From contig NZ_CP038266.1 in assembly GCF_004564355.1 (NCBI RefSeq), positions 558,001 through 622,000 of the forward strand: 64,000 nucleotides of DNA. The letters run 5' to 3'. Shown here piece after piece: positions 35,166 through 49,575 of the stretch. Numbering within the stretch: the first letter of the stretch is position 1; each line of letters begins with the position of its first letter. The position numbers and the translations under genes are program-made. The notes below the pieces were generated by a model. That model ran no database searches. It was not told the origin of the DNA and worked only from the letters and a program-made list of their open reading frames with translations. This DNA is from Microbacterium wangchenii. GTDB lineage: Bacteria; Actinomycetota; Actinomycetes; Actinomycetales; Microbacteriaceae.

Positions 35166-35699
35166 TTACGCCGCGTCGCGGCGGCGCCGCACGACGGCGG
35201 TGGCCACGGCCACGGCTCCGCCGGCCAGCGCCAGCGCCCCGCCGCCGATCCAGATGCCCAGGTACGGGCCGAAGTCCGCGCCGGTGGCGGAGAGGCCGTT
35301 GACGGTCACCGTGACGGTGTCACCCGGTGAGGAGGCCGTGAAGACGGCGATCGTGTAGGCGCCGCGCGCGTCGGCGGGGAAGGTGATCCGCACCGGATCC
35401 AGGCCGCCCTGCGCGTTGGTGACGGCATCCCGGTACGTCGCGGTCGACACCGCGGCGCGGACCATTCCGAACGTCGCTCCGGCGCCGTTCTCGCCCGTCA
35501 CCGTGATGGTGGCCGGCTCGTTCGCCGCGAAGGTCCCGTCGGCCACCGAGAGCGTCGCGCTGCCACCGGGTTCCACCACGGCGCTGGAGACGCTCGCGGC
35601 GTCCTCGGCCGGGTAGGCCAGCGCGGCGGCGGGGACGGCGAACACGGCGCCGGCTGCCAGAGCCGCGACGGCGACGAGACGGGGGAAGAACTTCTTCAT
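35166..35699 (-). CDS. Small surface protein with degenerate sortase signal (LSATG)
   Basis: A 177-residue exported protein. The signal peptide is MKKFFPRL plus a long hydrophobic stretch ending AALA-YPAED. A single beta-rich domain follows (about 35-130). The end reads LSATG (136-140), then WIGGGALALAGGAVAVATAVV and RRRRDAA. This is laid out as a sorting signal, but LSATG departs from LPxTG by lacking the proline. The membrane segment and overall plan match the LPPTG protein at 3940-4485, so they are probably paralogues. It may be anchored by a sortase of different specificity or simply stay in the membrane. It is 43 bp downstream of the DUF4012 gene on the same strand. Confidence 0.8.
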   Translation of the reverse strand: MKKFFPRLVAVAALAAGAVFAVPAAALAYPAEDAASVSSAVVEPGGSATLSVADGTFAANEPATITVTGENGAGATFGMVRAAVSTATYRDAVTNAQGGLDPVRITFPADARGAYTIAVFTASSPGDTVTVTVNGLSATGADFGPYLGIWIGGGALALAGGAVAVATAVVRRRRDAA

Positions 35700-35742
35700 C
35701 GGGCCGCTTCCGGGGGAGGGGGTGGTGCCGCGAGTGCGTGCC

Positions 35743-37536
35743 TCATTGTCCCGTAGGCGTGCACCCCGGAGCAAGTTCGGCGGATTCCACGTCGCGCATG
35801 GTGGGCGTCACGACGGCTTCGAGCACCGGCGTGGCGGGCGTCCGCACGCGCAGGGTGACCGTCGCCTCCTCGCCCGGCAGCAGATTCGTCGCCCACGTGA
35901 GCACCCGCCGGCCCTCGTGCATCCCGCCGCCGAACCCGGTGGAAGGCTGCGACGCGGTGCCCCCCGGCTGGGCGGCGACGATCTCGGCCCCCTCCGGCAG
36001 GTAGAGGTAGGCGACGGTCTCGGTCGTGCCGGCGGGCGTGCCGAGGGCGCCGCCGCCGGTGATGTACTCGGGCAGGGTGGCCGCGTCGGCGGGGGCGTCG
36101 CTGCGCAGCCGCACCGACAGCAGGGCGTCGGGGGAGCCTTCCGTGTCGGTGCACCAGCCGACGGATGCGGCGACGTTCATGTAGTAGTCCATCTTCGAGC
36201 CGGTGCCGTCGTTGAGGTACACGCCGAATCGCGTGGCCTCCGCATCCGTCTCGGGCAGCCGGCCCTGCAGGCTCGTGCCGTCGAGGATCGCCTGGTCGGC
36301 CTCGTCGGCGTTCCACAGGTAGAGGCGCTGCTCGCTGCCGGCGCGCGCGAGGGCGTCGACGAGCTTGACCGGATCGGCCGTGCCGGAGGTGAGCGTGCCG
36401 AAGACCGCGGCCGTGGCGGCGGCGAAGAACGCGTCCTGGTCGGCGGGCACCTCGTAGCGCTGGTAGACCTCGTTCAGCAGCAGTGGCACGGCGCTCTCAG
36501 CCGAAAGCACGTCGCCGGTGGGGAGGGTCACCGGTCCGGTGGCCTCCAGCAGGTACGACAGCGTCACCGGATCGACCGCGACGACGCCGCTGAGCAGGCC
36601 GCCGAACTCGCGCTGCCACATCTCGCGGGCGAGAGGGGCGCCGACGGTGAAGTCGGGGATCTGCGTGACGTTCTGCACGTACTGCGCGGGGCGCAGGGCG
36701 TAGATCTCCTCGAGCTCGGGAGACAGGGGCAGCACAGGCTCGGCGTACCGCCGGAAGTCGCGCGTGGACCCCTGTGCGCTGAGCGAGATGCGGCCGTCCT
36801 CGGTGCGGACGACGGCCATCGCCCCGGCGATGCCGCCGAGCGAGCGCCACTCGGCGTTGTTCTGGAAGAGCACGAGGTAATCGCGGGGGCCCTCCGCGCC
36901 CAGCATGGCCGGCATGAGCGCGGTCGCGCGCCCCAGCGCGTCGGCACCGGTCGCGACGTCGGCGAAGAGGGTCTGCACCTCGGCGACCGGTTCCCGCAGC
37001 GGCGCGAGCAGGTTCTCGGGCTGGATCCGCGCGACCTCCTCGGATGCGGCCGCCAGGCGTTCGGCGCTCGCGACGGCCGGCTCGTGCAGGTCGGCGAGGG
37101 CGGCGATGTCGAAGCGGCCCTCCTGCGGGCGCAGCGAGTCGACGGAGAAGGACGTGGCGACCTCGGCCAGCGGCGCGATGGCGGTGGTGGCGACCTCGTC
37201 GGCGGTGCGGGTGAGGGTGGCGACGGCATCCAGCTGCGGCCCGATCCAGGGGAGCCCCGCCGCGAGCGCCCACACGGGGTCGCCCGTGAGCGCCCTGGCC
37301 GCGGAGGTGTGCTCGGAGATCCGGTCGATGACCTCCGCCGCCTGCGCCGGATCGGACAGCGCCTGCTGGGCATCGGCGGCCGCCGCGCGCGCGTCGGCGA
37401 CGTGGCCGTAGGCCATCGCGCCGCGCACGCCGATCCACAGACCGCCGAGGAGGAGGACGGCGACGAAGGCGGCCAGAAGCCCCGCGACGACGCGACCCGC
37501 GACCCGGCGTGAGGTGCTCACGGGGTATTCGGTCAC
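35743..37536 (-). CDS. DUF4012-domain membrane-anchored protein
   Basis: A 597-residue protein with one N-terminal membrane helix (about 11-36) and a large outside portion. FQNNAEWRSLGGIAGAMAVVRTEDGRISL (around 225-255) and LRPAQYVQNVTQIPDFTVGAPLAREMWQREFGG are characteristic of DUF4012, a family found near polysaccharide and glycosyltransferase genes in actinobacteria. Function is unknown. ATG 37536 gives MTEYPVSTSRRVAGR then the helix. It is divergent from the lipoprotein at 37633 and upstream of the LSATG surface protein, with which it may share a transcript. Confidence 0.82.
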   Translation of the reverse strand: MTEYPVSTSRRVAGRVVAGLLAAFVAVLLLGGLWIGVRGAMAYGHVADARAAAADAQQALSDPAQAAEVIDRISEHTSAARALTGDPVWALAAGLPWIGPQLDAVATLTRTADEVATTAIAPLAEVATSFSVDSLRPQEGRFDIAALADLHEPAVASAERLAAASEEVARIQPENLLAPLREPVAEVQTLFADVATGADALGRATALMPAMLGAEGPRDYLVLFQNNAEWRSLGGIAGAMAVVRTEDGRISLSAQGSTRDFRRYAEPVLPLSPELEEIYALRPAQYVQNVTQIPDFTVGAPLAREMWQREFGGLLSGVVAVDPVTLSYLLEATGPVTLPTGDVLSAESAVPLLLNEVYQRYEVPADQDAFFAAATAAVFGTLTSGTADPVKLVDALARAGSEQRLYLWNADEADQAILDGTSLQGRLPETDAEATRFGVYLNDGTGSKMDYYMNVAASVGWCTDTEGSPDALLSVRLRSDAPADAATLPEYITGGGALGTPAGTTETVAYLYLPEGAEIVAAQPGGTASQPSTGFGGGMHEGRRVLTWATNLLPGEEATVTLRVRTPATPVLEAVVTPTMRDVESAELAPGCTPTGQ

Positions 37537-37632
37537 TCGATCACCCTAGGCGAGCCGCCGCGCGCTGGTCGACGCGCGCAGGAGGGCGCGGCGGCTCCCC
37601 CTAGACTGACGGCGTACGACGAAGGGTGCCCC

Positions 37633-38274
37633 ATGGTCCGATCAACCCGTCGCCGCGCAGCGGTGGGCGCCGCGTTCGTTCTCACCGGCGTTCTGTCGCT
37701 GACGGCATGCGGCCCGGCCCCGTGGGCGGGCGGGGCGGGCGGAACCTCCGCGCCGCCGAGCCCGACGCGCACGGCCGCGGTCGTGCCGCAGCCCGTGCCG
37801 AACGACCTCTCCAGCGGATCGACGGAGCGCGCGCTGCAGGCCGGCGCCGTCGCGGCGGCCGTGAACTACTGGTCCACGCTGTCGATGGACCAGTGGACCC
37901 CGACCGCGCTGAAACCCGTCAGCCTGTCGCTCACGACGACGGTCACCCCCGACGACGGCCAGCAGGTGGGCCTGCAGCGCGTGTCGATGATCGCGGTGCC
38001 GGCGAACCCGACCGAGACCTTCGCGCCGCTGGAGGCGCAGCTGGACCAGTCGAACCAGACGGCGGGGTACCCCGTGCTCGCGCCGTACAGCTACTCGCAG
38101 ACGTTCAACATCGGCGAGGTGCCCGCCGCCGCCACCCACGTGACGCTGCAGTTCACGTACGAGTTCCTCGTGCAGACCACGCCCACCTCGGCCGAGTACG
38201 CCAAGCAGACCACGACCGACGCGGTGCGCGTGGCCATCGCCGGCGGAGGGGTCGCACCGGCCTCGGAGGACTGA
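37633..38274 (+). CDS. Secreted lipoprotein of unknown function
   Basis: A 213-residue lipoprotein. MVRSTRRRAAVGAAFVLTGV is followed by the lipobox LTAC, with the acylated cysteine at about residue 26. A Pro/Thr linker and a predicted all-beta domain follow, with no motif I recognise. It weakly resembles the lipoprotein at 41261-41989: both have a Q/E-W-T-P stretch early and a hydrophobic alternating strand late (VTLQFTYEFLVQ here, ITLEFAMNVWVE there). TAGACT at 37602-37607 is a possible -10, and CGAAGGG precedes the ATG. Converges with the GGDEF-like gene two bases after its stop. Confidence 0.78.
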   Translation: MVRSTRRRAAVGAAFVLTGVLSLTACGPAPWAGGAGGTSAPPSPTRTAAVVPQPVPNDLSSGSTERALQAGAVAAAVNYWSTLSMDQWTPTALKPVSLSLTTTVTPDDGQQVGLQRVSMIAVPANPTETFAPLEAQLDQSNQTAGYPVLAPYSYSQTFNIGEVPAAATHVTLQFTYEFLVQTTPTSAEYAKQTTTDAVRVAIAGGGVAPASED

Positions 38275-38276
38275 GG

Positions 38277-39407
38277 CTACGCGCCCACGCGCTGCCAGCG
38301 GTCGCCGCCGCCCTCGGATGCCTCCTCCGAGGCCTGCTGGGCATGGACGAGCAGCGTCTGGAAGTCGTATCCCACGACGTCCGCCGACGCCCACCCCACG
38401 CTCGCCGACAGCTGCACCGCCATCGGCTGCGCAGCATCCAGCTCGGTGATCGCCCGCAGCATCCGGCTCACGTGATCGCGCAGGACCGGCCCGGGGCGCG
38501 ACACCAGCACCGCGACGCGTTCGCGTCCCTCCCGGCCCATGTCCGCCTCCGCCGGGAACGACGCACGAACGGTGTGCTCGAACCGCTCGATGATCTGCCC
38601 GAACAGGGCTTCTCCCGCGGCGGCGCGGATGTCGTCGGGATCGTCCAGTCGCACGACGAGCATGGCCCACGACGTCTCGCCGGCCTCGCGGGCGCGCGCC
38701 AGACGGTCGGCCGCGGTGACGGTGAACTGGGGCCAGGAGGCGGCGGTCTGCACGCCCACCGGTGACACGGTGGTGAAGAACAGCAGCGTGACCGTCGCGC
38801 ACACGAGGTAGATCAGCATCCCGAGGGTGTTGAGCAGGCGCACGAAGGAGAGGTCGTCGACCGAGCCCGTCGGGTGGAACAGGCCGGCGATGAGGATGAA
38901 GAAGGCCAGCAGGACGAAGCTCCCGGACACGAGCACGAGGGGGACCACCAGCCGCTCGTGCCGATCGGGAGAGCGGCGGATCTCCAGCAGCGTCAGGCCG
39001 GCGAAGATCGACGCGAGGAAGAAGTCCACGCGGAAGATGAGGTTGTAGAACTCGGTGTGCGAGCCCAGCCACAGGCCGAGGGCCGACAGCACCGAGATGG
39101 CCGCCGCGATCCAAGGGAGGGCGGGAACGCGGCGGCGGGCCCGGAAGCCCGACCAGATCAGGGCGGGTGCACCCAGCAGCACGCCCAGGCCGATGCGCCG
39201 TACCGGTTCGTTTCCGAGCGCCTCGCCGGCCAGGCTCACCCACGTGCTGACCATGGCGAGGACGAAGGCGAGCGACCACAGCAGCGACGCGCGCGAAGGC
39301 CGCTGGAGGAAGCCCAGGCCGATGATCATGACCGTGCCCAGGGTGGCGACGGTGGCTTGCGCGATCCCGAGGTTGGCGGTGGCGATCGAATTCAGATCGC
39401 CGGTCAT
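38277..39407 (-). CDS. Multipass membrane protein with degenerate GGDEF domain
   Basis: A 376-residue protein with about seven membrane helices (to about residue 215) and a cytoplasmic C-terminal domain (about 225-370). That domain follows the GGDEF fold order: ADRLARAREAGETSWAMLVVRLDDPDDIRAAAGEALFGQIIERF, then MGREGRERVAVLVSRPG where R-x-GGDEFVVL would be. The catalytic GG[D/E]EF is replaced by a GREGRE-like sequence, so diguanylate cyclase activity is unlikely. It may bind c-di-GMP or only signal by contact. Its start overlaps the histidine kinase stop by 4 bp, so the two are coupled and probably act together. Confidence 0.72.
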   Translation of the reverse strand: MTGDLNSIATANLGIAQATVATLGTVMIIGLGFLQRPSRASLLWSLAFVLAMVSTWVSLAGEALGNEPVRRIGLGVLLGAPALIWSGFRARRRVPALPWIAAAISVLSALGLWLGSHTEFYNLIFRVDFFLASIFAGLTLLEIRRSPDRHERLVVPLVLVSGSFVLLAFFILIAGLFHPTGSVDDLSFVRLLNTLGMLIYLVCATVTLLFFTTVSPVGVQTAASWPQFTVTAADRLARAREAGETSWAMLVVRLDDPDDIRAAAGEALFGQIIERFEHTVRASFPAEADMGREGRERVAVLVSRPGPVLRDHVSRMLRAITELDAAQPMAVQLSASVGWASADVVGYDFQTLLVHAQQASEEASEGGGDRWQRVGA

Positions 39408-41071
39408 TCGCCGCGCCCCGCCGGCAGCGTGATGGTCACGGTCGTGCCGGTGCCCTGTTCGCTCTCCAGGTGCAGCGTGCCGCGGTGCTCCTCGATGATG
39501 GTGCGGAGGATCCCCATGCCCAGCCCCGTGCCGGGTGTCGAACTCTCCCGTGCGGTGCGCGCACGGAAGTAGGGGTCGAAGATGCGGGGGAGCTCGTCGG
39601 CGGCGATGCCGATGCCGGTGTCGGTGACCACGACCACGACGTGACCGACCTCAGCCCGCGCGGAGATGCGCACCGATCCGCCCCCCGGCGTGTACTTGAT
39701 GGCGTTGCTGAGCACGTTGTCGACGGCCTGACGCAGACGGAACGCGTCTCCGCGCACCTCCAGCGACGGCGGTGCGTCGACGCTCACGCGCACGCGGCGG
39801 CCATCGGCGGCGGGGCGGAACGATTCGACCGAGGCATCCAGGATGCGGCGGATGTCGATGGAGGAGGCGTCCGTGTGATCGCGCGCCTCCGCGCGGGACC
39901 CGGCGAGGATCTCGGAGATGAGGGTCTGCATGCGCTCGGCGGCGCTGTCGATGACCTCCAGCTGCTCGCGCGTCTTGGCCGGCAACTGGTCCGACTCCAG
40001 TGCGAGCTCGGCGTGTCCCATGATCGCGGTGAGGGGGTTGCGCAGTTCGTGGGAGACCACCGCGGCGAGGCGTTCGCGGGCGCGCTCGGCCTCGATGAGG
40101 GCCGTGACGTCGTGGACGATGAGGAGCGTGCTCTCGGGCTCGTCGCCCGCCGGCGTCAGACGGCGCGTCGAGACCGACAGGGCATGCCATTCGCCGTCCG
40201 TGTCGAACAGCCACACCCGCTCGTCCTCGAACAGCTCGCCGCGAGCCGCGCGGGCGAAGGGGCGATCGAGTTCGGGCAGGGGATCGCCGCGCAGCGCGGA
40301 GTACTCCACGGAGCGGCCGGGTCGCTTGGGGTCGTCCCGGTCGATCGCGTACAGCGACACGTACGTGTCGTTGAGGGCCAGCACCTCGCCGGCGCGGGAG
40401 AGCCGCGCGATGCCGGTGTCCAGGCCGTTGAGCATCTGCGACACGCGCCGCTCCTGCCCGCTCACGCGGGCGAGCGTGCCCTGGAGGCGGCCGGCCTGCC
40501 TCCGCAGGAGCTGGCGGAACGCGCGGCTCTGCCGCGCGGCGAGATACGTGGTCAAGCCGATGAAGGTCAGGGCGAGGAGCACCACCATGAGGCGCACGAC
40601 GTCGTGGGTGCCGGGTCCGGTGAGGGTGCCGTCGAGGATGATGACGCCGGCGACCATCGCGAGGGCGCCCAAGAGGGCGGGCAGGGCGAAGTACGTCGCG
40701 ATCCACGTGATGGGGAAGACCCAGAAGAAGCCGAACTGCAGGTCGCTCTGCAGGACGAGGAAGCTCACGCCGATGAGGTCGCCGAAGGGCACGAGTGCGA
40801 TGTACTCCCGCGGCACGCGGCGCCACGGGACGGCCAGGCAGGCGGCGGTGAGGGCGATGATGATCGCCACACCCGTGGAGAAGGTCCACACCCCGAACAG
40901 CGCCGGTTCCAGCGCCTGCACGACCAGCACGGTGACCACGACACTCGCGGCGAGCACGAGCTGGAGCAGCCAGATCGACCGTGTGCGGTTGTCGGCGAGG
41001 CCGCCGCCGTCGGGGCCGTCCGGTGCGGTGTCGGCAGGCGACGTGGCCGGGAGGCTGTTCACGGCTGCCAT
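39404..41071 (-). CDS. Membrane sensor histidine kinase with PAS domain
   Basis: A 555-residue kinase. Six or so membrane helices (about 30-185), a coiled stretch, a PAS-like domain (about 205-320, RRVSQMLNGLDTGIARLSRAGEVLALND), then the kinase core. The phosphoacceptor is H341 in VVSHELRNPLTAIMGHAEL. N-box DNVLSNAIKYTPGGG, G1 DTGIGI, F FDPYFRAR and G2 GTGLGMGI are intact. ATG 41071 (MAAVNSLP) was chosen over an upstream in-frame ATG at 41197. It is coupled to the GGDEF-like gene. A likely partner regulator is encoded at 43686-44633, two genes away and also on the minus strand. Confidence 0.9.
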   Translation of the reverse strand: MAAVNSLPATSPADTAPDGPDGGGLADNRTRSIWLLQLVLAASVVVTVLVVQALEPALFGVWTFSTGVAIIIALTAACLAVPWRRVPREYIALVPFGDLIGVSFLVLQSDLQFGFFWVFPITWIATYFALPALLGALAMVAGVIILDGTLTGPGTHDVVRLMVVLLALTFIGLTTYLAARQSRAFRQLLRRQAGRLQGTLARVSGQERRVSQMLNGLDTGIARLSRAGEVLALNDTYVSLYAIDRDDPKRPGRSVEYSALRGDPLPELDRPFARAARGELFEDERVWLFDTDGEWHALSVSTRRLTPAGDEPESTLLIVHDVTALIEAERARERLAAVVSHELRNPLTAIMGHAELALESDQLPAKTREQLEVIDSAAERMQTLISEILAGSRAEARDHTDASSIDIRRILDASVESFRPAADGRRVRVSVDAPPSLEVRGDAFRLRQAVDNVLSNAIKYTPGGGSVRISARAEVGHVVVVVTDTGIGIAADELPRIFDPYFRARTARESSTPGTGLGMGILRTIIEEHRGTLHLESEQGTGTTVTITLPAGRGE

Positions 41072-41260
41072 AGCTCTGAGTCTAGTGACCGCGGGTCCAG
41101 GGGCCGTGGTGTATTCTCCTAGGCGCCATCCTGTCTCTGCTCCGCCGGCCGCCCGTTTCGGGTCCGCCGACCGGCAGATTCCCCCTGAGGCCTGCACTGC
41201 GCAGCGCGGTGGTCACCCGCCCGTACCCGCTGTCGCGCGGTCCGTCCTCAGGAGCATGCA

Positions 41261-41989
41261 GTGAACACTCGACCGATCCGTCCCTCTCTCCGTGCTGCCG
41301 CGATCGCAGTCACTCTCGTCCTGGCCGGGGCAGCGCTCACCGGTTGCACGCAGGTGGTCGACGCCTTCAACACGCTCTCCGGAAACCCCGCGCCCCGGGT
41401 CGTCGCGCCGACGACGGTTCCGTCGCCGGAACCCACCTCGTCGGCGATCGCCTTCGACTCGATGTTCACCTACAACGGCTCCGTGTCGTTGACCAGCGAG
41501 ATCGCCGACGAGCTCGAACTCGTCCTGGACGTGTGGGCGGTGGACTCCCGCCGCACCCAGGAGTGGACGCCTGAGGCGCCCAAGACGTTCGGTTTCGCCG
41601 TGAACGTCGTCGACCACCGCGTCGACGAGAAGGCCGTGCTGGCCGAGAAGCGCCGCGTCTACATCTCCAGCATCTCCATCTCCTCCAGCACCGCTCAGAC
41701 CTCCGGCCAGGTGCAGTCGCCGTTCCGCTTCAGCGCGGACCCGCGCACGCTCGTCCCGCAGGACACCATCCGCTCCGACCGCGGGCTGCTGCTGAACACG
41801 TTCCAGGGCGGGCTGCACGTGCCGGAGACGACGATCCACCAGCTGCCCCAGGACACCTACGGCATCACGCTGGAGTTCGCGATGAACGTGTGGGTGGAAG
41901 GCGCCGCCGACACCGACACGTCCTTCGCGCAGCAGTCGGTCTACCAGTACCTGCCGATCGCCATCCACCCCGGCGGAGCCGCGGGCTGA
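41261..41989 (+). CDS. Secreted lipoprotein of unknown function, upstream of GT2
   Basis: A 242-residue lipoprotein with signal peptide MNTRPIRPSLRAAAIAVTLV and lipobox LTGC (cysteine near residue 29). The rest is beta-rich, with FDSMFTYNGSVSLTSE and VPETTIHQLPQDTYGITLEF. I recognise no domain. GTG 41261 follows CAGGAG. It precedes the GT2 gene by 139 bp on the same strand and is divergent from the histidine kinase. A distant relationship to the lipoprotein at 37633-38274 is likely. It could be an accessory of polysaccharide export, by position only. Confidence 0.78.
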   Translation: MNTRPIRPSLRAAAIAVTLVLAGAALTGCTQVVDAFNTLSGNPAPRVVAPTTVPSPEPTSSAIAFDSMFTYNGSVSLTSEIADELELVLDVWAVDSRRTQEWTPEAPKTFGFAVNVVDHRVDEKAVLAEKRRVYISSISISSSTAQTSGQVQSPFRFSADPRTLVPQDTIRSDRGLLLNTFQGGLHVPETTIHQLPQDTYGITLEFAMNVWVEGAADTDTSFAQQSVYQYLPIAIHPGGAAG

Positions 41990-42128
41990 GCCTGCTCGGT
42001 CGGAATCCAGGCGGTCTTGAGGGAATCTTGCGGTTGCCCTTTCGCCGCGTGCGGGGTACCTCGCGGCACGTGCGTCAATCTGTGAGTGCCGGGCAGGGGG
42101 ATCCCCCGCAGGACCAGGAAGTAGAACC

Positions 42129-43601
42129 GTGAACGCACCGCGTACGAACCTCGCACCCGTCGCATACGCCCCGTCGTATGCGGCCGAGCCGGTGCGTCCC
42201 GGCACGGAGATGGACCTCGCCGACGACTTCTCCTCTGTCCTGGAGAACAGCACCGGTCACCGTTCGACCATCGGATGCATCATCCCCGCGTACAACGAGG
42301 AGGACTCGATCGCCGCGGTGATCGAGGGTCTGCTGAGCCAGACGCGCGTGCCCGACGTGATCCACGTCGTGGTCAACAACACCTCGGACAACACCGTCAA
42401 GATCGCCTCCGAGTACAGCGGCCCCCACGAGATCGTCACCGACCTGGGCGAGCAGTTCACCGAGGTCTTCGTGCACGACATCGGAAAGAACCCCGACAAG
42501 AAGGTCGGCGCGCTCAACTACGGCTACTCGCTCGTGGAGGGCTACGACTACCTCCTGGGCGTGGACGGCGACACCATCGCCGACACCAAGGCCGTCGAGT
42601 ACCTGGAGACCGAAGCGGTCTCCGACTCCCGCATCGGCGGCATCTCCGCCATCTACTCCATCGATGACCGGCCCATGAAGGGCCTCATCGCGAAGTTCCT
42701 CACCGCCGGTCAGCGCACGCAGTTCGCCGCCTTCAATCTGCAGAACCTCCTGCGCGGGCGCAACATGGCCGTGCTCGGAGGGCAGTTCTCCATCTTCGCC
42801 ACCAACGCCCTGCGCGACGCGATGAAGCAGAACCACCAGAGCACGCCGTGGGTGCGCGACTCCGAGGTGGAGGACTCCCTGCTGTCGCTGCAGATCAAGA
42901 GCGCCGGCTACCTCACCAAGATCAGCCCCTACGCCCGCGCGGACGTGGGCGGGATGACGACCCTGTCGGCGTACGACGCGCAGCAGGTGAAGTGGACCTA
43001 CGGCGCCATCGAGCTCATGTGGCCGGGCCAGCGCGGCGACACGAAGGGCCAGCCGTTCCACCCCAACCTGCGGCTGCGCTGGTTCGAGAACTTCGGCATG
43101 CTGACGAACCTCTTCGTGCGCGTGGCGTTCTTCACGCTGCTGGCCGGCTCGCTCTCGATCGACGCGTTCATCTTCTCCCCGTTGTGGCTCGTGCCCCCCG
43201 TGATCGCCATCCTCCTGAACGTGCGCATCGCCCGCACGATGCAGAACTGCAACGGCCGCGACCTCCTGTTCGCCGCGACGTTCATCCCGGCGGAGATCTT
43301 CATGTGGATCCGCATCAGCCACTTCGTCCGCTCGTGGACCCGCTTCCTCTCCCGCAAGCAGGTCGACAACTGGGCGATGCAGGCCAAGGCCGAGAAGGGT
43401 GGCGGGCTCGGGCACTGGGCGCCCTTTCTCGTGCTGCTGGCCGTCGCCGTCGCGATGGCCGTCATCTGGAACCTCGTGGGCCCGGTCACGCAGTCCTCGA
43501 TCCTGTGGATCGGGTGGCCCATCGTCGGTGTCGTCACCGTCCTGCAGACCCTGCTCATGTTCGGAAAGCTCATCCGTCGCCACCACGGATACAAGGTCTG
43601 A
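42129..43601 (+). CDS. Processive-type family 2 glycosyltransferase (BcsA/cellulose synthase-like)
   Basis: A 490-residue membrane glycosyltransferase. The catalytic domain (about 47-320) has IIPAYNEEDSIAAVIEGLL, NNTSDNT, the DxD-like VDGDT, the acceptor-side DSEVEDSLL and QQVKWTYG, a QxxKW variant of the QxxRW motif of processive synthases. C-terminal membrane helices (about 325-490: FVRVAFFTLLAGSL, PLWLVPPVIAILL, APFLVLLAVAVAMAVIW, SILWIGWPIVGVVTVL) would form a polymer channel. It should polymerise a nucleotide sugar and export a beta-linked glycan; which sugar cannot be told. GTG 42129 follows AGGAAG. Neighbours are a lipoprotein, a two-component pair, a GGDEF-derived protein and a GH6 glucanase, as in exopolysaccharide loci. 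A 13-bp terminator follows. Confidence 0.85.
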   Translation: MNAPRTNLAPVAYAPSYAAEPVRPGTEMDLADDFSSVLENSTGHRSTIGCIIPAYNEEDSIAAVIEGLLSQTRVPDVIHVVVNNTSDNTVKIASEYSGPHEIVTDLGEQFTEVFVHDIGKNPDKKVGALNYGYSLVEGYDYLLGVDGDTIADTKAVEYLETEAVSDSRIGGISAIYSIDDRPMKGLIAKFLTAGQRTQFAAFNLQNLLRGRNMAVLGGQFSIFATNALRDAMKQNHQSTPWVRDSEVEDSLLSLQIKSAGYLTKISPYARADVGGMTTLSAYDAQQVKWTYGAIELMWPGQRGDTKGQPFHPNLRLRWFENFGMLTNLFVRVAFFTLLAGSLSIDAFIFSPLWLVPPVIAILLNVRIARTMQNCNGRDLLFAATFIPAEIFMWIRISHFVRSWTRFLSRKQVDNWAMQAKAEKGGGLGHWAPFLVLLAVAVAMAVIWNLVGPVTQSSILWIGWPIVGVVTVLQTLLMFGKLIRRHHGYKV

Positions 43602-43623
43602 CGCGCCCGAACGCGTCGGAAAG

Positions 43624-43661
43624 ACGGATGCTCCGGTCCTGGGGAGGGCCGGAGCATCCGT
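43624..43661 (+). terminator. Hairpin after the GT2 gene
   Basis: ACGGATGCTCCGG (43624-43636) pairs perfectly with CCGGAGCATCCGT (43649-43661). It lies between convergent genes (GT2 on +, regulator on -), 22 bp after one stop and 25 bp from the other, and could serve both directions. Confidence 0.7.
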
Positions 43662-43685
43662 GCATCGCGCCGTGGCGCGGTACAG

Positions 43686-44633
43686 CTACGGGGCGACGAG
43701 CTCCGACGTGAGCCGGTAGCCCACGCCGCGCACGGTCTCGATGTACCGCGGGGTCGTCGGGTTGTCGCCGAGCTTGCGCCGCAGGTTCGTCATATGCGCT
43801 TCGATCGCGCGCTTGTCGGCCTCGCCGACGAAGTAGCTCGTGACGTAGGACTCCCCGCGCAGCACGAGGGTCAGATCCGCCTTGCTGCGCACGCGTCGCT
43901 TGGACTCGAGGAGGGTGGCGAGCAGGTCGAACTCCGTGCGGGTGAGCTCGAGTTCGCGTCCGCCCAGCAGCACGATCCGGCTGTCGGGGTCGAGCTGCAG
44001 GTCGCGGTGCACGAGCCAGTTCGCCGGCGCGGGGGCCACCTCGCCGACCGCGCGCGGCGCGAGGTCGGTGCCGGGGGCGGCCTGCGGCTCCGGACCCTGC
44101 GTCGCGGGGACGATGACCGGCGCCTCCTGCGTCGCCGCTGCGGCGGGAGCGTACTCCTCCGGCCGCACGACGGGGACGCTCTGCGTGGCCGGGCGCGCTC
44201 CCGGGAACGAGGGCCCGACGGGGCCTTGGCGCGGCGCGCTGACCGCTCCGCTGCGCGGTCGGCGCAGCAGCGCTTCGATGCGGGCGCGGAGCTCGCGAGG
44301 ACGGAACGGCTTCACGACGTACTCGTCGGCGCCGGCGCCCAGACCCAGCACGACGTCGGCCTCGTCCTCGAGCCCGGTGAGCATGATGATGTAGGTGTCG
44401 GACTGGGCGCGGATGCGGCGGGCCGCTTCGAACCCGTCGATGCCCGGCATGTTGACATCCAGCGTCGTGATGAGCGGCTGGTAGGCGATGACGGCCCGCA
44501 CTCCATCGATGCCGTTTCCCACCGAGACGGTGGAGAAGCCGGCCGACTCGAGCACCTCGACCAGGAGGTGCCGGATGTCGGGATCGTCCTCGACGATCAC
44601 GGCGGTCTTGTGCGCGTCCGCGGAGTCGCTCAT
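43686..44633 (-). CDS. OmpR/PhoB-type response regulator with long Pro/Ala linker
   Basis: A 315-residue DNA-binding regulator. The receiver (about 10-125) has E15 D16 D17, phosphoacceptor D59 in TLDVNMPG, T86 and K108 (VKPFRP). The winged-helix domain (about 208-312) has LELTRTEFDLLATLLES and IEAHMTNLRRKLGDNPTTPRYIETVRGVGYRL. Between them are about 80 residues rich in Pro, Ala, Val and Gln, far longer than the usual 10-20. ATG 44633 starts the receiver; upstream in-frame sequence is not conserved-looking. It is the probable partner of the kinase at 39404-41071. Confidence 0.9.
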   Translation of the reverse strand: MSDSADAHKTAVIVEDDPDIRHLLVEVLESAGFSTVSVGNGIDGVRAVIAYQPLITTLDVNMPGIDGFEAARRIRAQSDTYIIMLTGLEDEADVVLGLGAGADEYVVKPFRPRELRARIEALLRRPRSGAVSAPRQGPVGPSFPGARPATQSVPVVRPEEYAPAAAATQEAPVIVPATQGPEPQAAPGTDLAPRAVGEVAPAPANWLVHRDLQLDPDSRIVLLGGRELELTRTEFDLLATLLESKRRVRSKADLTLVLRGESYVTSYFVGEADKRAIEAHMTNLRRKLGDNPTTPRYIETVRGVGYRLTSELVAP

Positions 44634-44715
44634 CCTTGTTTTCGCCTCACTCGATCCACCGCTGGGTCGTGCGCCATCCTCGCACACTTCGAACGATGCG
44701 TTGTGCGCGGCGACC

Positions 44716-45747
44716 TCATCGCACCTCGCGGGTGAGCTCGACCGCCGCGCGCGGCCACCACGCCCCCGCGGCCGGTCCGCCGTTGCACTCGCCGTCACTT
44801 TCACCCGGCGGTTTGATCCACAGATTCGTGTCCACGACGCCGTCGCCGTAGGTGCCGCCGGGCTCGCCGACGAGCCGCCCGGGAGGGTTGCACCACTCCG
44901 CTCCGCCGGGTCCGTCGCCGTTGCGGGACGTGTCGATGATCGCGTGAGCGCCTCCCAGCAGCCCCGACAGTTCGTGGGCGTAGGTGAATTCCGCCGAGGT
45001 CGTCTGGTAGTTGGACACGTTGGTCGCAAAGCCCCGTACGCGGTCGAGGACGCCCACGCCGCGGATGAGGTCGGCCATCTGCTCGGCGGGAAGCCAGCTG
45101 GAGTGGCCTCCGTCGAGGTAGATCCACGTGTCGACGCCGGTCATCGCGTCCACGGCGCCGGCCAGCTGTCGTCCGCGGTCGGCGACGTTGCCGCACTCGG
45201 GGGCGAGCGCGAGGCTGTCCGGCTCCAGGACCACGATCTTCTGCACGTCGCGCGCATTGCGCAGTGCCTCGCCGATCCGCTGCGTCCACGCGGCGTAGGC
45301 CTGTTCATCCAGCCCGCCGGCGGAGTGGTTGCCGCAGTCGCGACCGGGCAGCCCGTAGACGACCACGGCGAGAGCAGCGTCCTGCTCGCGCGCCTCTGCG
45401 GCCAGGTGCGCGATGCGGTCCCACACCTCGTCGGCGGGCTCGAGCTCGGGGGTGAGCCAGTACGCGGTGGGCTGGGCGGCGAGATACTCCGTCGCGGCGA
45501 TCTCCGCCGCGGTGGTCGGCTCACCCTCGGCGATCGCGTGGGCGGCTTTGGACTCGTCCGGCACCACGATGACCGTGTCGACGGCAGGTGGACGGGCGGA
45601 GAGCATCTGGAAGAAGGCCTGCGTGTGAGTGGCGACGAGGACGATGGCGGCGATGAGACCCGCGACGGCGAGGGAGGACCCGCCCACGAGGAGGATCCGC
45701 CGGAGACGCCGACGGTTCGCCGGTGGCGAGGTCGGTCTCATCATCAC
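44716..45747 (-). CDS. Membrane-anchored GH6-family glucanase
   Basis: A 343-residue protein with one N-terminal membrane helix (about 17-40) and an extracellular glycoside hydrolase family 6 domain (about 55-340). Family motifs: VVVYGLPGRDCGNHSAGG (128-145, with the conserved acidic D137), VVLEPDSLA (172-180), NVSNYQTTS, DTSRNG, WCNPPGR and WIKPPGESDG. GH6 enzymes cleave beta-1,4-glucans. Start is GTG 45747 or ATG 45744/45741; a TAGAGT -10 lies about seven nt upstream on this strand, so it may be leaderless. It follows the response-regulator gene in the same region as the GT2 synthase. Streptomyces cslA loci pair a synthase with a GH6 enzyme in a similar way. Confidence 0.9.
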   Translation of the reverse strand: MMMRPTSPPANRRRLRRILLVGGSSLAVAGLIAAIVLVATHTQAFFQMLSARPPAVDTVIVVPDESKAAHAIAEGEPTTAAEIAATEYLAAQPTAYWLTPELEPADEVWDRIAHLAAEAREQDAALAVVVYGLPGRDCGNHSAGGLDEQAYAAWTQRIGEALRNARDVQKIVVLEPDSLALAPECGNVADRGRQLAGAVDAMTGVDTWIYLDGGHSSWLPAEQMADLIRGVGVLDRVRGFATNVSNYQTTSAEFTYAHELSGLLGGAHAIIDTSRNGDGPGGAEWCNPPGRLVGEPGGTYGDGVVDTNLWIKPPGESDGECNGGPAAGAWWPRAAVELTREVR

Positions 45748-45830: not shown

Positions 45831-45956
45831 TCGCGACCGGTGCCGGGTCGCTTCCACGAGTATACAGAGCGTGTCCCCCGTTCGGGGGACAGGGTCCCCC
45901 CTCTGTGGATAAGCCCGCGGGAATGGTTAGGCGCCGCCGTTGGGTACGCTCGGAAC

Positions 45957-46280
45957 GTGGGAAAACTGATTTACACCGGGCTCGGATACTCGTTCGATAT
46001 CGAGGATCGTGCGCTCGCCCACCTCCGGGTGATCTTCATGAACAAGCTCCGCCGGGGTGAGCCCTTCATGTTCCACCACACCGCCGGCGACGGCAGCGGC
46101 ACCCGCAGCTCGTGGATCCATCCCTCGATCCCGGTGGTCTTCCACTTCTACGGCAGTCGCGCGCCCGTGCTGAACCGCCGCTGGGTCGACGACCTCATGC
46201 GCGAGGCGAACGGTCCGAACGGACTGACGATCATCCCCGAGCCGGACCCCGATTCGCCGGTGATGCCCGAGCGCGCCTAA
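45957..46280 (+). CDS. DUF7882-like small protein, copy 1
   Basis: A 107-residue cytoplasmic protein of unknown function. MGKLIYTGLGYSFDIEDRALAHLRVIFMNKLRRGEPFMF and SSWIHPSIPVVFHFYGSRAPVLNRRWVDDLM are shared with copy 2 at 46947-47309. I associate these with the actinobacterial DUF7882 family, sometimes labelled ATP-dependent DNA ligase in databases, although no ligase motif is visible. GTG 45957 lies six nt after TACGCT (45945-45950), suggesting a leaderless mRNA. It converges with the MarR gene, overlapping by 4 bp. Confidence 0.75.
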   Translation: MGKLIYTGLGYSFDIEDRALAHLRVIFMNKLRRGEPFMFHHTAGDGSGTRSSWIHPSIPVVFHFYGSRAPVLNRRWVDDLMREANGPNGLTIIPEPDPDSPVMPERA

Positions 46281-46738
46281 GCGCACTCCTGGTCGACGGC
46301 CTCCCGCACGCGGTCGAGGAACTGCGCGACGTGCTCGGCTTCGGCGGGGGACAATTCGCCGGCGAACTCCCGGATGCGGGCGCTGAGCGGATCGACGTCG
46401 GTGAGGTCGATGTCGCGGTCGAAGGGGACGACGTACTTGCTGCGCCGATCCGTCGGGTTCGACGTGAAGGCGACGAGACCGCCGGCGTGAAGGCGGTCGA
46501 GCATCCCCGTGACGGATGCGGTGGAGACGCCGAGGTGCTGCGCGATCCCCGTGGGGGTGACCGATTCGCCCTCGTCGGTGCATTCGAGGATGTAGCGCAT
46601 GGCGGCTCGCGCGTTCTCGCTGGGGCCGCACGCATTCTGGCGGCGGCGGGCCAGTCGCGACTCCGATTGCCGGAGTCGTTCGACGGCCCGTACGGCCTCG
46701 GCGATCGCGTCGCCGGTGTCCGTGGTGGTCACCTGCAT
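46277..46738 (-). CDS. MarR-family transcriptional regulator
   Basis: A 153-residue winged-helix repressor. AMRYILECTDEGESVTPTGIAQHLGVSTASVTGMLDRLHAGGLVAFTSNPTDRRSKYVVP is the MarR DNA-binding core, with the NPTDRRSK wing. ATG 46738 (MQVTTTDTG) was chosen over an ATG 13 codons upstream. It is divergent from the second DUF7882-like gene across 208 bp of relatively AT-rich DNA that contains inverted and direct repeats, so it probably regulates that gene and itself. The inducing ligand is unknown. Confidence 0.88.
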   Translation of the reverse strand: MQVTTTDTGDAIAEAVRAVERLRQSESRLARRRQNACGPSENARAAMRYILECTDEGESVTPTGIAQHLGVSTASVTGMLDRLHAGGLVAFTSNPTDRRSKYVVPFDRDIDLTDVDPLSARIREFAGELSPAEAEHVAQFLDRVREAVDQECA

Positions 46739-46859
46739 CCTTCCGTCGGGCGGAGCTGGGAACGGTGAAGCTCCCATTGTAGTTAGGGAGGGTGATTACT
46801 CACCAGGTGAGCTTTCTCAACGCCGACAAACATGAGACGTTCCTCATCCAGTTGCCTGA

Positions 46860-46922
46860 TTGCTAGTTTGCCTAGTAACGTGCTGAGTAATAAATCAATC
46901 GTCTGACATTCAATCGTCTGAC
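46860..46922. promoter_or_regulatory. Candidate operator region between marR and DUF7882-like copy 2
   Basis: TTGCTAG (46860-46866) and CTAGTAA (46872-46878) form a near-perfect palindrome with a 5-nt spacer, the size expected for a MarR dimer site. TCAATCGTCTGAC occurs twice, exactly, at 46895-46907 and 46910-46922. The stretch 46840-46920 is much more AT-rich than the surroundings, as a promoter would be. Confidence 0.55.
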
Positions 46923-46946
46923 CGGCAGAGGGGACCGCACCGCATC

Positions 46947-47309
46947 ATGGGACAACTGTTCTACGGCAACGCAACCCAGCCCATCGAGATGCCAGACCGG
47001 CTGCTCGCCCACGTCAAGGTGGTCACCGCGACCAAGCTCCGCCGCGGCGAGAGCTTCACGCTCTCCTGGCGGCACCCCGAGGACATCCCCGGTGGGCGCT
47101 CGACCATCTGGCTGCACCCGTCGATCCCCCTGCGATTCGTCTTCTCCAGCGCCGAGCCCGAGATGCTCAACCCTGCTTTCCTGAAAGACCTGGCCAACGC
47201 CGCCAACTCCTCCGGCGGCCTCTCCGTCGACCTCAACATGCCGGTGCCGGTGAACGACGAGGTTTCGACGCCGCCGGCCCGCGTCCCCGTCGGGGCGCGG
47301 GCCGCCTGA
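46947..47309 (+). CDS. DUF7882-like small protein, copy 2
   Basis: A 120-residue paralogue of the protein at 45957-46280: MGQLFYGNATQPIEMPDRLLAHVKVVTATKLRRGESFTLSW, then STIWLHPSIPLRFVFSSAEPEMLNPAFLKDLA. The shared core (AHVKVV/AHLRVI, KLRRGE, HPSIP, LN.....DL) spans about 95 residues; copy 2 adds a Pro/Val tail. No catalytic motif or membrane segment is seen. It is divergent from the MarR gene and probably its target. Confidence 0.75.
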   Translation: MGQLFYGNATQPIEMPDRLLAHVKVVTATKLRRGESFTLSWRHPEDIPGGRSTIWLHPSIPLRFVFSSAEPEMLNPAFLKDLANAANSSGGLSVDLNMPVPVNDEVSTPPARVPVGARAA

Positions 47310-48397: not shown

Positions 48398-48775
48398 ATG
48401 CGCACATTCGCCCGCTGGATGCTGGGGGGCGCGATGCTGTTCGCGGGCCTGAGCCATCTGTTCTGGGCCCGGCGCGACTTCCAGGCACAGGTGCCCGACT
48501 GGGCCGCGGAGGTCGTGCCGCTGGACAAGGACGACGTCGTGCTGGCCTCGGGGGTCGTCGAGATGGCATTCGGGGCGGCCCTGATCGCCCTGCCGCGCGA
48601 GCGCCGCACGATCGGCGCCGCCCTCGCCGCCTTCTTCCTCGCCGTCTTCCCCGGCAACATCGAGCAGTGGCGCAAGCGCCGGTCGGCGTTCGGGCTCGAC
48701 ACCGACCGGAAGCGCTTCATCCGCCTGTTCTTCCAGCCCGCGCTCGTCGCGTGGGCATGGTGGTCGACGCGCTAG
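48398..48775 (+). CDS. DoxX-like small membrane protein
   Basis: A 125-residue protein with three to four membrane helices (MLGGAMLFAGLSHLFW, VVLASGVVEMAFGAALIAL, IGAALAAFFLAVFPG, LFFQPALVAWAWW). The GNIEQW segment and small size fit the DoxX/DoxD-like superfamily. Function unknown, perhaps membrane redox related. ATG 48398 follows GAGGAG. It is 17 bp after the SGNH gene and overlaps the convergent GH114-like gene by 4 bp. Confidence 0.78.
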   Translation: MRTFARWMLGGAMLFAGLSHLFWARRDFQAQVPDWAAEVVPLDKDDVVLASGVVEMAFGAALIALPRERRTIGAALAAFFLAVFPGNIEQWRKRRSAFGLDTDRKRFIRLFFQPALVAWAWWSTR

Positions 48776-49575
48776 CAGCTTTCGAAGAAGTAGCCCGCGT
48801 CGGAGGGAGACACCAGCCCCCGATCGCGCAGCACGACCGACTGGGGCACCGCGGGGTCGGCGCACACCTCATCGAAGCGACGGGGAAGCGCATCGGTGTA
48901 CTCGATGTCGAGCACGTGCGGCCCGTAGACGGCTTCGTACGCGTCGCACTCCTGGAAGGCCGCGCACTCCTCCGTGATGGCGAAATCGAAGCCGGCATCG
49001 TGGGAGAACCGTTCGGCGTGTTCGGCGGCGTTCTTCTGCGCCGCCGCCAGCCCCGCCCGGTGGGCGGCGGCGACCAGCTCAGCGGCCAGTGCGACGTTGT
49101 CGTCGACGGTGAGGGCGCCGCCGGAGCGGGCGAACGTGTCGAGATTGTCGAACTCGACCGCGTCGAACCCGGCGTCGGCGCACTCCTGGATCCACGGTGT
49201 CACGACGGCCGCGATCTCCGCTCTGCGTTCCGGCGTCGAGACATCCAGCAGGATCTCATCCGGCCACTGCGGGTCGACGACGGGTGCGTCCTCGCGCCGG
49301 AGCAGCGCGTCGACCGGCCACTCGTCCGCCTCTCCCGGTTGCGTCTGGAAGCCGTTGACGTAGCAGATCGAGTATCCGCCCTCCAGCGGGGCCGCCGACC
49401 GGTCGCGCACGACCACCTCCACGCCGCCGGGCGGCGGGTACGCCCCGCCGAGCTGGTAGTCGAACGCGGCGCCCGCGGGGGGAGGAGCCGGCGCGGGGGA
49501 GCCGGGCGCGCTGCATCCGGCGACGAGCAGGGCGACGGCCGGCACGGCCGCCGCCCGCCAGAACGACGCTCTCAT
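48772..49575 (-). CDS. GH114-like (endo-alpha-1,4-polygalactosaminidase type) lipoprotein
   Basis: A 267-residue lipoprotein: MRASFWRAAAVPAVALLVAGC is the signal and lipobox. The mature part is a TIM-barrel glycosidase of the GH114/TM1410 type: FDYQLGGAYPP, YSICYVNGFQTQPGEADEW, ILLDVS, DAGFDAVEFDNLDTF and the late EECAAFQECDAY. These enzymes cut galactosaminogalactan-like polymers. The acidic residues in FDAVEFDNLD are the probable catalytic area. ATG 49575 is 7 bp after the terC stop on the same strand, so it may share the terC transcript. Confidence 0.8.
   Translation of the reverse strand: MRASFWRAAAVPAVALLVAGCSAPGSPAPAPPPAGAAFDYQLGGAYPPPGGVEVVVRDRSAAPLEGGYSICYVNGFQTQPGEADEWPVDALLRREDAPVVDPQWPDEILLDVSTPERRAEIAAVVTPWIQECADAGFDAVEFDNLDTFARSGGALTVDDNVALAAELVAAAHRAGLAAAQKNAAEHAERFSHDAGFDFAITEECAAFQECDAYEAVYGPHVLDIEYTDALPRRFDEVCADPAVPQSVVLRDRGLVSPSDAGYFFESC

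Follow-up and report, generated by a model that had tools for sequence, protein, structure and literature searches.

The window analysed here is a 64-kb stretch of the 3.83-Mb single-contig genome of Microbacterium wangchenii, and it contains a cassette built around a membrane glycosyltransferase of family 2 (GT2) and a hydrolase of glycoside hydrolase family 6 (GH6). Every gene named in an initial annotation was found in its place, with base composition at the third codon position of the coding type, and the existence of a conserved locus, as first observed there, was confirmed. Its core consists of six genes, encoding lipoprotein A, a histidine kinase, a degenerate GGDEF protein, the GT2, an OmpR-family response regulator and the GH6; this core recurs while the flanks vary, and the carriers are members of the Microbacterium family from soil and plants. 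The gene order is lipoprotein A (+), GGDEF protein (-), kinase (-), lipoprotein B (+), GT2 (+), a hairpin, response regulator (-) and GH6 (-).

Lipoprotein A (213 amino acids, 37633..38274, +) carries the lipobox LTAC at residues 23-26, and lipoprotein B (242 amino acids, 41261..41989, +) the lipobox LTGC. Between them, the stop codon of the membrane histidine kinase gene (39404..41071, -) overlaps the ATG of the degenerate GGDEF gene (38277..39407, -). The kinase has about five transmembrane (TM) segments by hydropathy and Pfam PAS, HisKA and HATPase domains; its open reading frame reaches 41197, and the start at 41071 was judged likelier. The GGDEF protein has six TM segments by hydropathy and a weak Pfam GGDEF match (24.5 bits, E = 3e-5). 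The GT2 (490 amino acids, 42129..43601, +) is a candidate processive synthase, as judged from its Pfam match (E = 2e-12), motifs, a tree, profiles and a structural model. Convergent with it is the response regulator gene (43686..44633, -), encoding 315 amino acids from the likely start at 44633 within a reading frame of 43686-45029 (-); the hairpin between the two genes (43624..43661, 17-bp stem, fold z-score -5.8 for 43599-43690) is likely a bidirectional terminator. A receiver and a winged-helix C-terminal domain (Pfam Response_reg and Trans_reg_C) place the regulator in the OmpR family. The GH6 gene (44716..45747, -) encodes 343 amino acids (Pfam E = 3e-54, 185 bits), and hydropathy shows a single TM or signal segment at the N-terminus.

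Conservation was surveyed in three sets of loci. Loci in named genomes were found by the GT2, taking the best 80 of 106 with a relative; their GT2s share 71-90% identity with that of the window, and nearly all belong to Microbacterium. The family sample gave 20 loci from 19 genera, one of them the genus of the window, and 17 further loci came from other families of the order (15), the same family (L170) and another order of the class (L171), two genomes giving two each. Three loci with GT2s of 31-34% identity (L172-L174) were excluded from the counts. Only loci in which the GT2 has 5.5 kb or more of flank in both directions were counted, namely 67 of the 80 genome-contig loci (13 were dropped at contig ends), 18 of the 20 family loci (17 from other genera, one from the own genus) and 17/17 of the further loci. 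The kinase and the response regulator belong to large families, and a match at E ≤ 1e-5 near the GT2 may not be an orthologue. With this reservation, the response regulator and the GH6 were each present in 67/67 genome-contig loci, lipoprotein A in 66, the kinase and the GGDEF protein in 55 each and lipoprotein B in 47, and all six core genes stood together in 53. The survey of relatives that the initial annotation had suggested as a check came out in favour of its proposal: a membrane GT2, a GH6 and local signalling genes form a conserved actinobacterial locus. In the family sample, lipoprotein A and the regulator were each found in 14 of the 18 loci, the kinase in 13, the GH6 in 12 and the GGDEF protein in 5, with lipoprotein A, regulator and GH6 jointly in 11; by clustering of called genes, 12 of the 20 family loci have a member of the GGDEF cluster. 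Lipoprotein B, with 0/18 in this sample at E ≤ 1e-5, occurs mainly in Microbacterium. The further loci retained the regulator in 8 cases, lipoprotein A in 7, the kinase in 4, the GH6 in 3 (L163, L170 and L171) and the GGDEF protein and lipoprotein B in 1 each. Where all three had strong matches, the arrangement GT2 (+), regulator (-), GH6 (-) was kept in 82 of 86 loci.

Co-occurrence was also determined across 299 genomes of the family, in which the GT2 was found in 45 (19 of 85 genera), lipoprotein A in 37 (16 genera) and a GH6 (E ≤ 1e-15) in 71. All 37 genomes with lipoprotein A carry the GT2, and none of the 38 copies detected is further than 3.9 kb from it, the median gap being 267 bp; no lipoprotein A was detected without a GT2 in these genomes. 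Close relatives of the GH6 (above 220 bits) occurred in 36 genomes, all with the GT2, and 36 of the 37 copies were within 3.2 kb of it, the 37th being on a separate contig, in a genome where the GT2 is at the edge of its own contig. In 34 other GH6-positive genomes, without the GT2, there were weaker GH6 relatives only. Eight genomes have the GT2 without lipoprotein A, and in six of these the GT2 identity is 30-53%. One could suppose that the genes are mere neighbours in a slowly rearranging region and have no joint function, given that the locus comes after truA, which is near the GT2 in 57 of the 67 genome-contig loci, and that an operon apparently for ribosomal proteins, recognised by the sizes of its reading frames only, precedes it. 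However, the core holds together amid different flanks in other genera, and this supposition is contradicted by the constant presence of the GT2 beside lipoprotein A, so that we regard it as very improbable.

The module is patchy within its genus (5 of the 12 other same-genus genomes among those listed in the order sample) and rare outside the order (3 of 396 phylum genomes, the own genus counted in). The GT2 of genome G790, from another order (L171), shows 66% identity and has a GH6, a regulator and a kinase nearby. Among GT2s from other families in the order sample, only that of G484 is closer (69%; also with GH6, regulator and lipoprotein A), the rest being at 62% or less, which hints at lateral transfer.

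Of all the genes, that of lipoprotein A has the tightest link to the GT2, and weak relatives of it (26-29% identity) adjoin GT2s at three loci (L120, L157 and L161) where no GH6 or two-component gene matched. We infer that lipoprotein A is the outer partner of the synthase. Lipoproteins A and B were described as distantly similar in the initial annotation; BLASTP aligned them at 23% identity (E = 0.002), and a profile-profile comparison by hhalign gave a probability of 96.5% (E = 1e-9), indicating by sequence that they are remote paralogues. Pfam searches of 37 lipoprotein A rows found no family in more than one member at E ≤ 0.1 (two families, in one member each, E over 0.01), and those of 25 lipoprotein B rows gave two families in one member and one in two, all at E over 0.01. 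A profile search of the PDB with both lipoproteins returned none at E ≤ 0.01, the best being 0.036. In other systems the outer-partner place is held by BcsB, CcsB and GlxA, which according to the portions consulted of two reports share no homology (PMC11022532, PMC7710045).

Compared with the motif set D, DxD, TED and QxxRW, the GT2 has D87, DGD (D146xD148), VED (E248-D249) and QQVKW (Q285QVKW289); the acidic positions are retained, T is changed to V and R to K. QQVKW is without variation across 62 aligned members, and five C-terminal TM segments are predicted by hydropathy. The predicted model has a pLDDT (predicted local distance difference test) of 81, and its structural relatives span hyaluronan, chitin and cellulose synthases; no PgaC-type chain was among the matches listed for it, which carries no weight. 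Motif and predicted fold favour a processive enzyme. If the GT2 were instead non-processive, it would glycosylate a lipid, a wall polymer or the adjacent lipoproteins, and the cassette would remodel the wall and make no exopolysaccharide. The invariant QQVKW and the C-terminal TM segments argue against this, ArnC scores just 6.7 bits in the profile comparison, and a beta-1,4-glucanase as partner would suit a polymer better; we therefore consider it improbable.

The initial annotation had called the GT2 BcsA/CslA-like, which does not hold by descent. In a tree of 32 rows, 12 of them references, with long branches flagged and Streptomyces CslA outside the set, a 100/100 split parts the GT2 from E. 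coli BcsA, curdlan and related synthases and places it on the PgaC/IcaA side with a long branch of 2.17. Pfam gave no PilZ match in the GT2, while E. coli BcsA as a control does show PilZ; TIGR03030 (CelA) was absent from the NCBIfam matches of the GT2 at E ≤ 0.1 and matches a different gene in the same genome. Among named references the GT2 profile scored IcaA at 59 bits and PgaC at 45, BcsA at 15 and curdlan synthase at 11. On these comparisons, the GT2 is in a clade separate from BcsA/CslA, and its nearest named references are poly-N-acetylglucosamine (PNAG) synthases. Two other GT2 genes were seen in passing. A Lacticaseibacillus plasmid encodes a GT2 of the same wider clade with QRKKW (L188:4932-6416), on a stretch with transposase and mobilisation genes, and a weak GT2 paralogue of the present genome is split over two adjoining frames with internal stops (L177:9407-10300), being either a broken gene or a sequence error.

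The GH6 is the only one found in the genome. Its best solved relatives are 1up0 (CelA1/Cel6, E = 2e-46), which like 1uoz we take to be M. tuberculosis CelA1, and 1tml (endoglucanase E-2, E = 1e-43), presumably the Thermobifida enzyme. The aspartates D137 and D177 of its RDC and EPD motifs align with those of solved GH6 enzymes and are invariant in 19/19 aligned cassette members, and this catalytic pair together with the Pfam domain identifies the protein as a GH6. The comparable Streptomyces GH6, CslZ, is described in two reports as aiding deposition of the CslA glycan and as active on cellulose, alpha-chitin and peptidoglycan (PMC9040799, PMC11022532). From this range of substrates, the GH6 indicates beta-1,4 bonds and not one particular sugar.

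The same range leaves room for an N-acetylglucosamine polymer, PNAG- or chitin-like, as the product in place of a glucan, in which case the GH6 would trim a beta-1,4-linked amino sugar or open peptidoglycan. The profile preference for IcaA and PgaC points this way, as do the public names of many GT2 homologues, which are PgaC-like or PNAG-synthase-like. On the other hand, the GT2 reaches only 46.7 bits against NCBIfam PgaC_IcaA, whose cut-off is 422.3, its branch is long, and a Pfam scan of 20 window proteins around the locus (30600-51987, E ≤ 0.01) gave no deacetylase or PgaD domain match. Such a polymer appears to us unlikely, though less so than a non-processive GT2.

As for the signalling genes, the initial annotation had recognised a kinase coupled to a degenerate GGDEF protein, which agrees with the Pfam matches and overlapping genes given above. 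None of 81 homologues labelled by BLAST in the loci retrieved has GG[DE]EF, and as some of these loci overlap, fewer are distinct; the signature expected of a diguanylate cyclase is gone. A genome-wide Pfam search at E ≤ 0.001 gave no GGDEF or EAL match, although at this threshold the degenerate domain of the window is also missed, as other decayed copies would be. These two results make the usual control by cyclic di-GMP (c-di-GMP) unlikely, and a c-di-GMP circuit was set aside on the genome search.

Upstream of the GT2, at 42015..42033 (+), TCTTGAGGGAATCTTGCGG forms a direct repeat of two units spaced 11 bp, TCTTGAGG-N3-TCTTGCGG, which site counts and a matrix suggest as a response-regulator box. 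OmpR-family sites typically consist of direct repeats with such a period. Pairs of CTTG[ACT]G units at a spacing of 11 or 22 bp, a pattern picked after inspecting the commonest 9-mers, preceded the GT2 in 53 of the 119 loci, whereas 4760 random 300-bp pieces drawn from these loci contained them in 26 cases. With both strands considered, such pairs occurred upstream of lipoprotein B in 16/57, the kinase in 13/85, lipoprotein A in 6/100 and the regulator in 1/99, and were absent upstream of the GH6 (0/91) and DUF4012 (0/47). A matrix trained on the GT2-upstream sites found a site in 83 of 104 loci with the regulator beside the GT2 and in 6 of 16 without it, and, on either strand, upstream of lipoprotein A in 21/100 and the kinase in 14/85. 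The regulator is the best candidate to bind the repeat because it is kept beside the GT2. In some relatives CTTG pairs precede the kinase or lipoprotein B, which is not the case in the window, and autoregulation is possible there.

No regulon is claimed, as the relaxed repeat pattern had 8 matches in the genome versus 18 for the reversed control. Besides the window site, it has one further exact match, within an array where four 11-bp CTTG-like units follow one another in the gap separating argS from a transglutaminase-like gene (L202:6318-6358, G000:C1:1199317-1199357). A one-mismatch pair of CTTG-type repeats precedes a SipW-type operon (L203:3252-6248, G000:C1:431251-434247), which encodes a SipW-like signal peptidase along with a protein of the alternate-signal-peptide type (TIGR04089, 114.8 bits), as though the cassette's regulator also served an operon for a protein matrix.

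Several neighbouring genes were rejected as parts of the cassette. The DUF4012 gene (35743-37536, -, Pfam E = 2e-45), counted as part of the locus in the initial annotation, is near the GT2 in 41 of the 67 genome-contig loci but in 0 of the 18 family-sample loci and is thus a syntenic neighbour. An exo/endonuclease-like gene, truA and an acyltransferase were rejected on the same ground (0/18 each), as was a small TM protein (35166-35774) with no match in the 20 family loci. Beside the cassette, two DUF7882 genes flank a MarR gene (45840-47309), and the first DUF7882 gene and MarR recur in 20 of the 67 genome-contig loci. A GH114 protein with a lipobox (48772-49575) lies 3 kb from the GH6 and is retained in 7 of the 67.

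We favour, with a probability of roughly 0.58, a cassette in which a two-component-controlled synthase, a lipoprotein partner and an endoglucanase serve a surface glycan of the beta-1,4 type. The GT2 would polymerise a UDP-sugar at the membrane and the chain would leave through its own transmembrane helices, while lipoproteins A and B on the outer leaflet would act as extracytoplasmic partner and receive or fold the chain, in the manner of BcsB, CcsB or GlxA. The anchored GH6 would cut beta-1,4 bonds so that the polymer can cross the wall. The OmpR regulator would receive its signal from the kinase and bind the 11-bp repeats upstream of the GT2; the co-translated degenerate GGDEF protein, with any ligand it may bind, perhaps tunes the kinase. 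More tentatively, and with rather more doubt than belief, the cassette may be an independently assembled actinobacterial machine for polysaccharide synthesis and export whose GT2 clade stands apart from both BcsA and PgaC. Its extracytoplasmic partner would be a new lipoprotein family found only with the GT2, its GH6 would be dedicated to it, and a two-component switch free of c-di-GMP would replace allosteric control, the degenerate GGDEF protein being a converted sensor that tunes the kinase.

If so, it would extend the bacterial pattern in which a processive synthase is joined by a matching glucanase and an unrelated outer partner, and would name a new partner family (lipoproteins A and B) strictly tied in genomes to its synthase. 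Microbacterium and its relatives would gain a defined locus for their matrix, the cassette would show how such a synthase can work without c-di-GMP, and one GT2, two lipoproteins and one GH6 would make a small system for reconstitution.

None of the titles and abstracts listed in searches of the open-licence PMC literature describes the locus, in line with the initial annotation. The consulted part of a genome paper on Microbacterium biofilm lists pgaC and bcsA by database match, and the term GH6 is absent from that part (PMC10384088). The cassette resembles PgaC/IcaA systems in that profile and tree both put these closest to its GT2 among the named references; it differs in the GT2 without an N-terminal TM segment by hydropathy, QQVKW in place of QRxRW and the lack of a deacetylase match. 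With CelA1 and E-2 its GH6 shares family and catalytic aspartates, whereas its place in a GT2 locus and its N-terminal membrane segment are different. Curdlan/BcsA-type loci with an HlyD partner are built on the same principle, in which a synthase is combined with an export partner and a matching glucanase, but with a separate GT2 clade, HlyD in place of a lipoprotein and GH81, an endo-beta-1,3-glucanase family, in place of GH6. In the same genome a CelA-like GT2, an HlyD-like protein and a GH81 stand in a row (L178:9195-13635, G000:C1:2202194-2206634), resembling the curdlan synthase beside hemolysin D in Rhizobium; the product of this locus may be a glucan with beta-1,3 or mixed linkages.

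Similar to the cassette, clostridial ccsZABHI combines a synthase, a partner without known homologue outside Clostridia and an endo-beta-1,4-glucanase; in the excerpts available, it has GH5 instead of GH6 and acetylation genes, and a local two-component system is not mentioned. The Streptomyces cslA-glxA-cslZ cluster (with lpmP) likewise has a membrane GT2 adjoining an opposite-strand GH6 anchored outside the cell, and an extracytoplasmic partner, for which lipoprotein A/B is proposed here; a GH6 next to the synthase is present in all 67 genome-contig loci. Unlike that cluster, the cassette shows no GlxA-type oxidase or lytic polysaccharide monooxygenase domain among the 20 scanned proteins, the former as the initial annotation had noted; its GT2 belongs to another clade without PilZ, and it has its own kinase and regulator.

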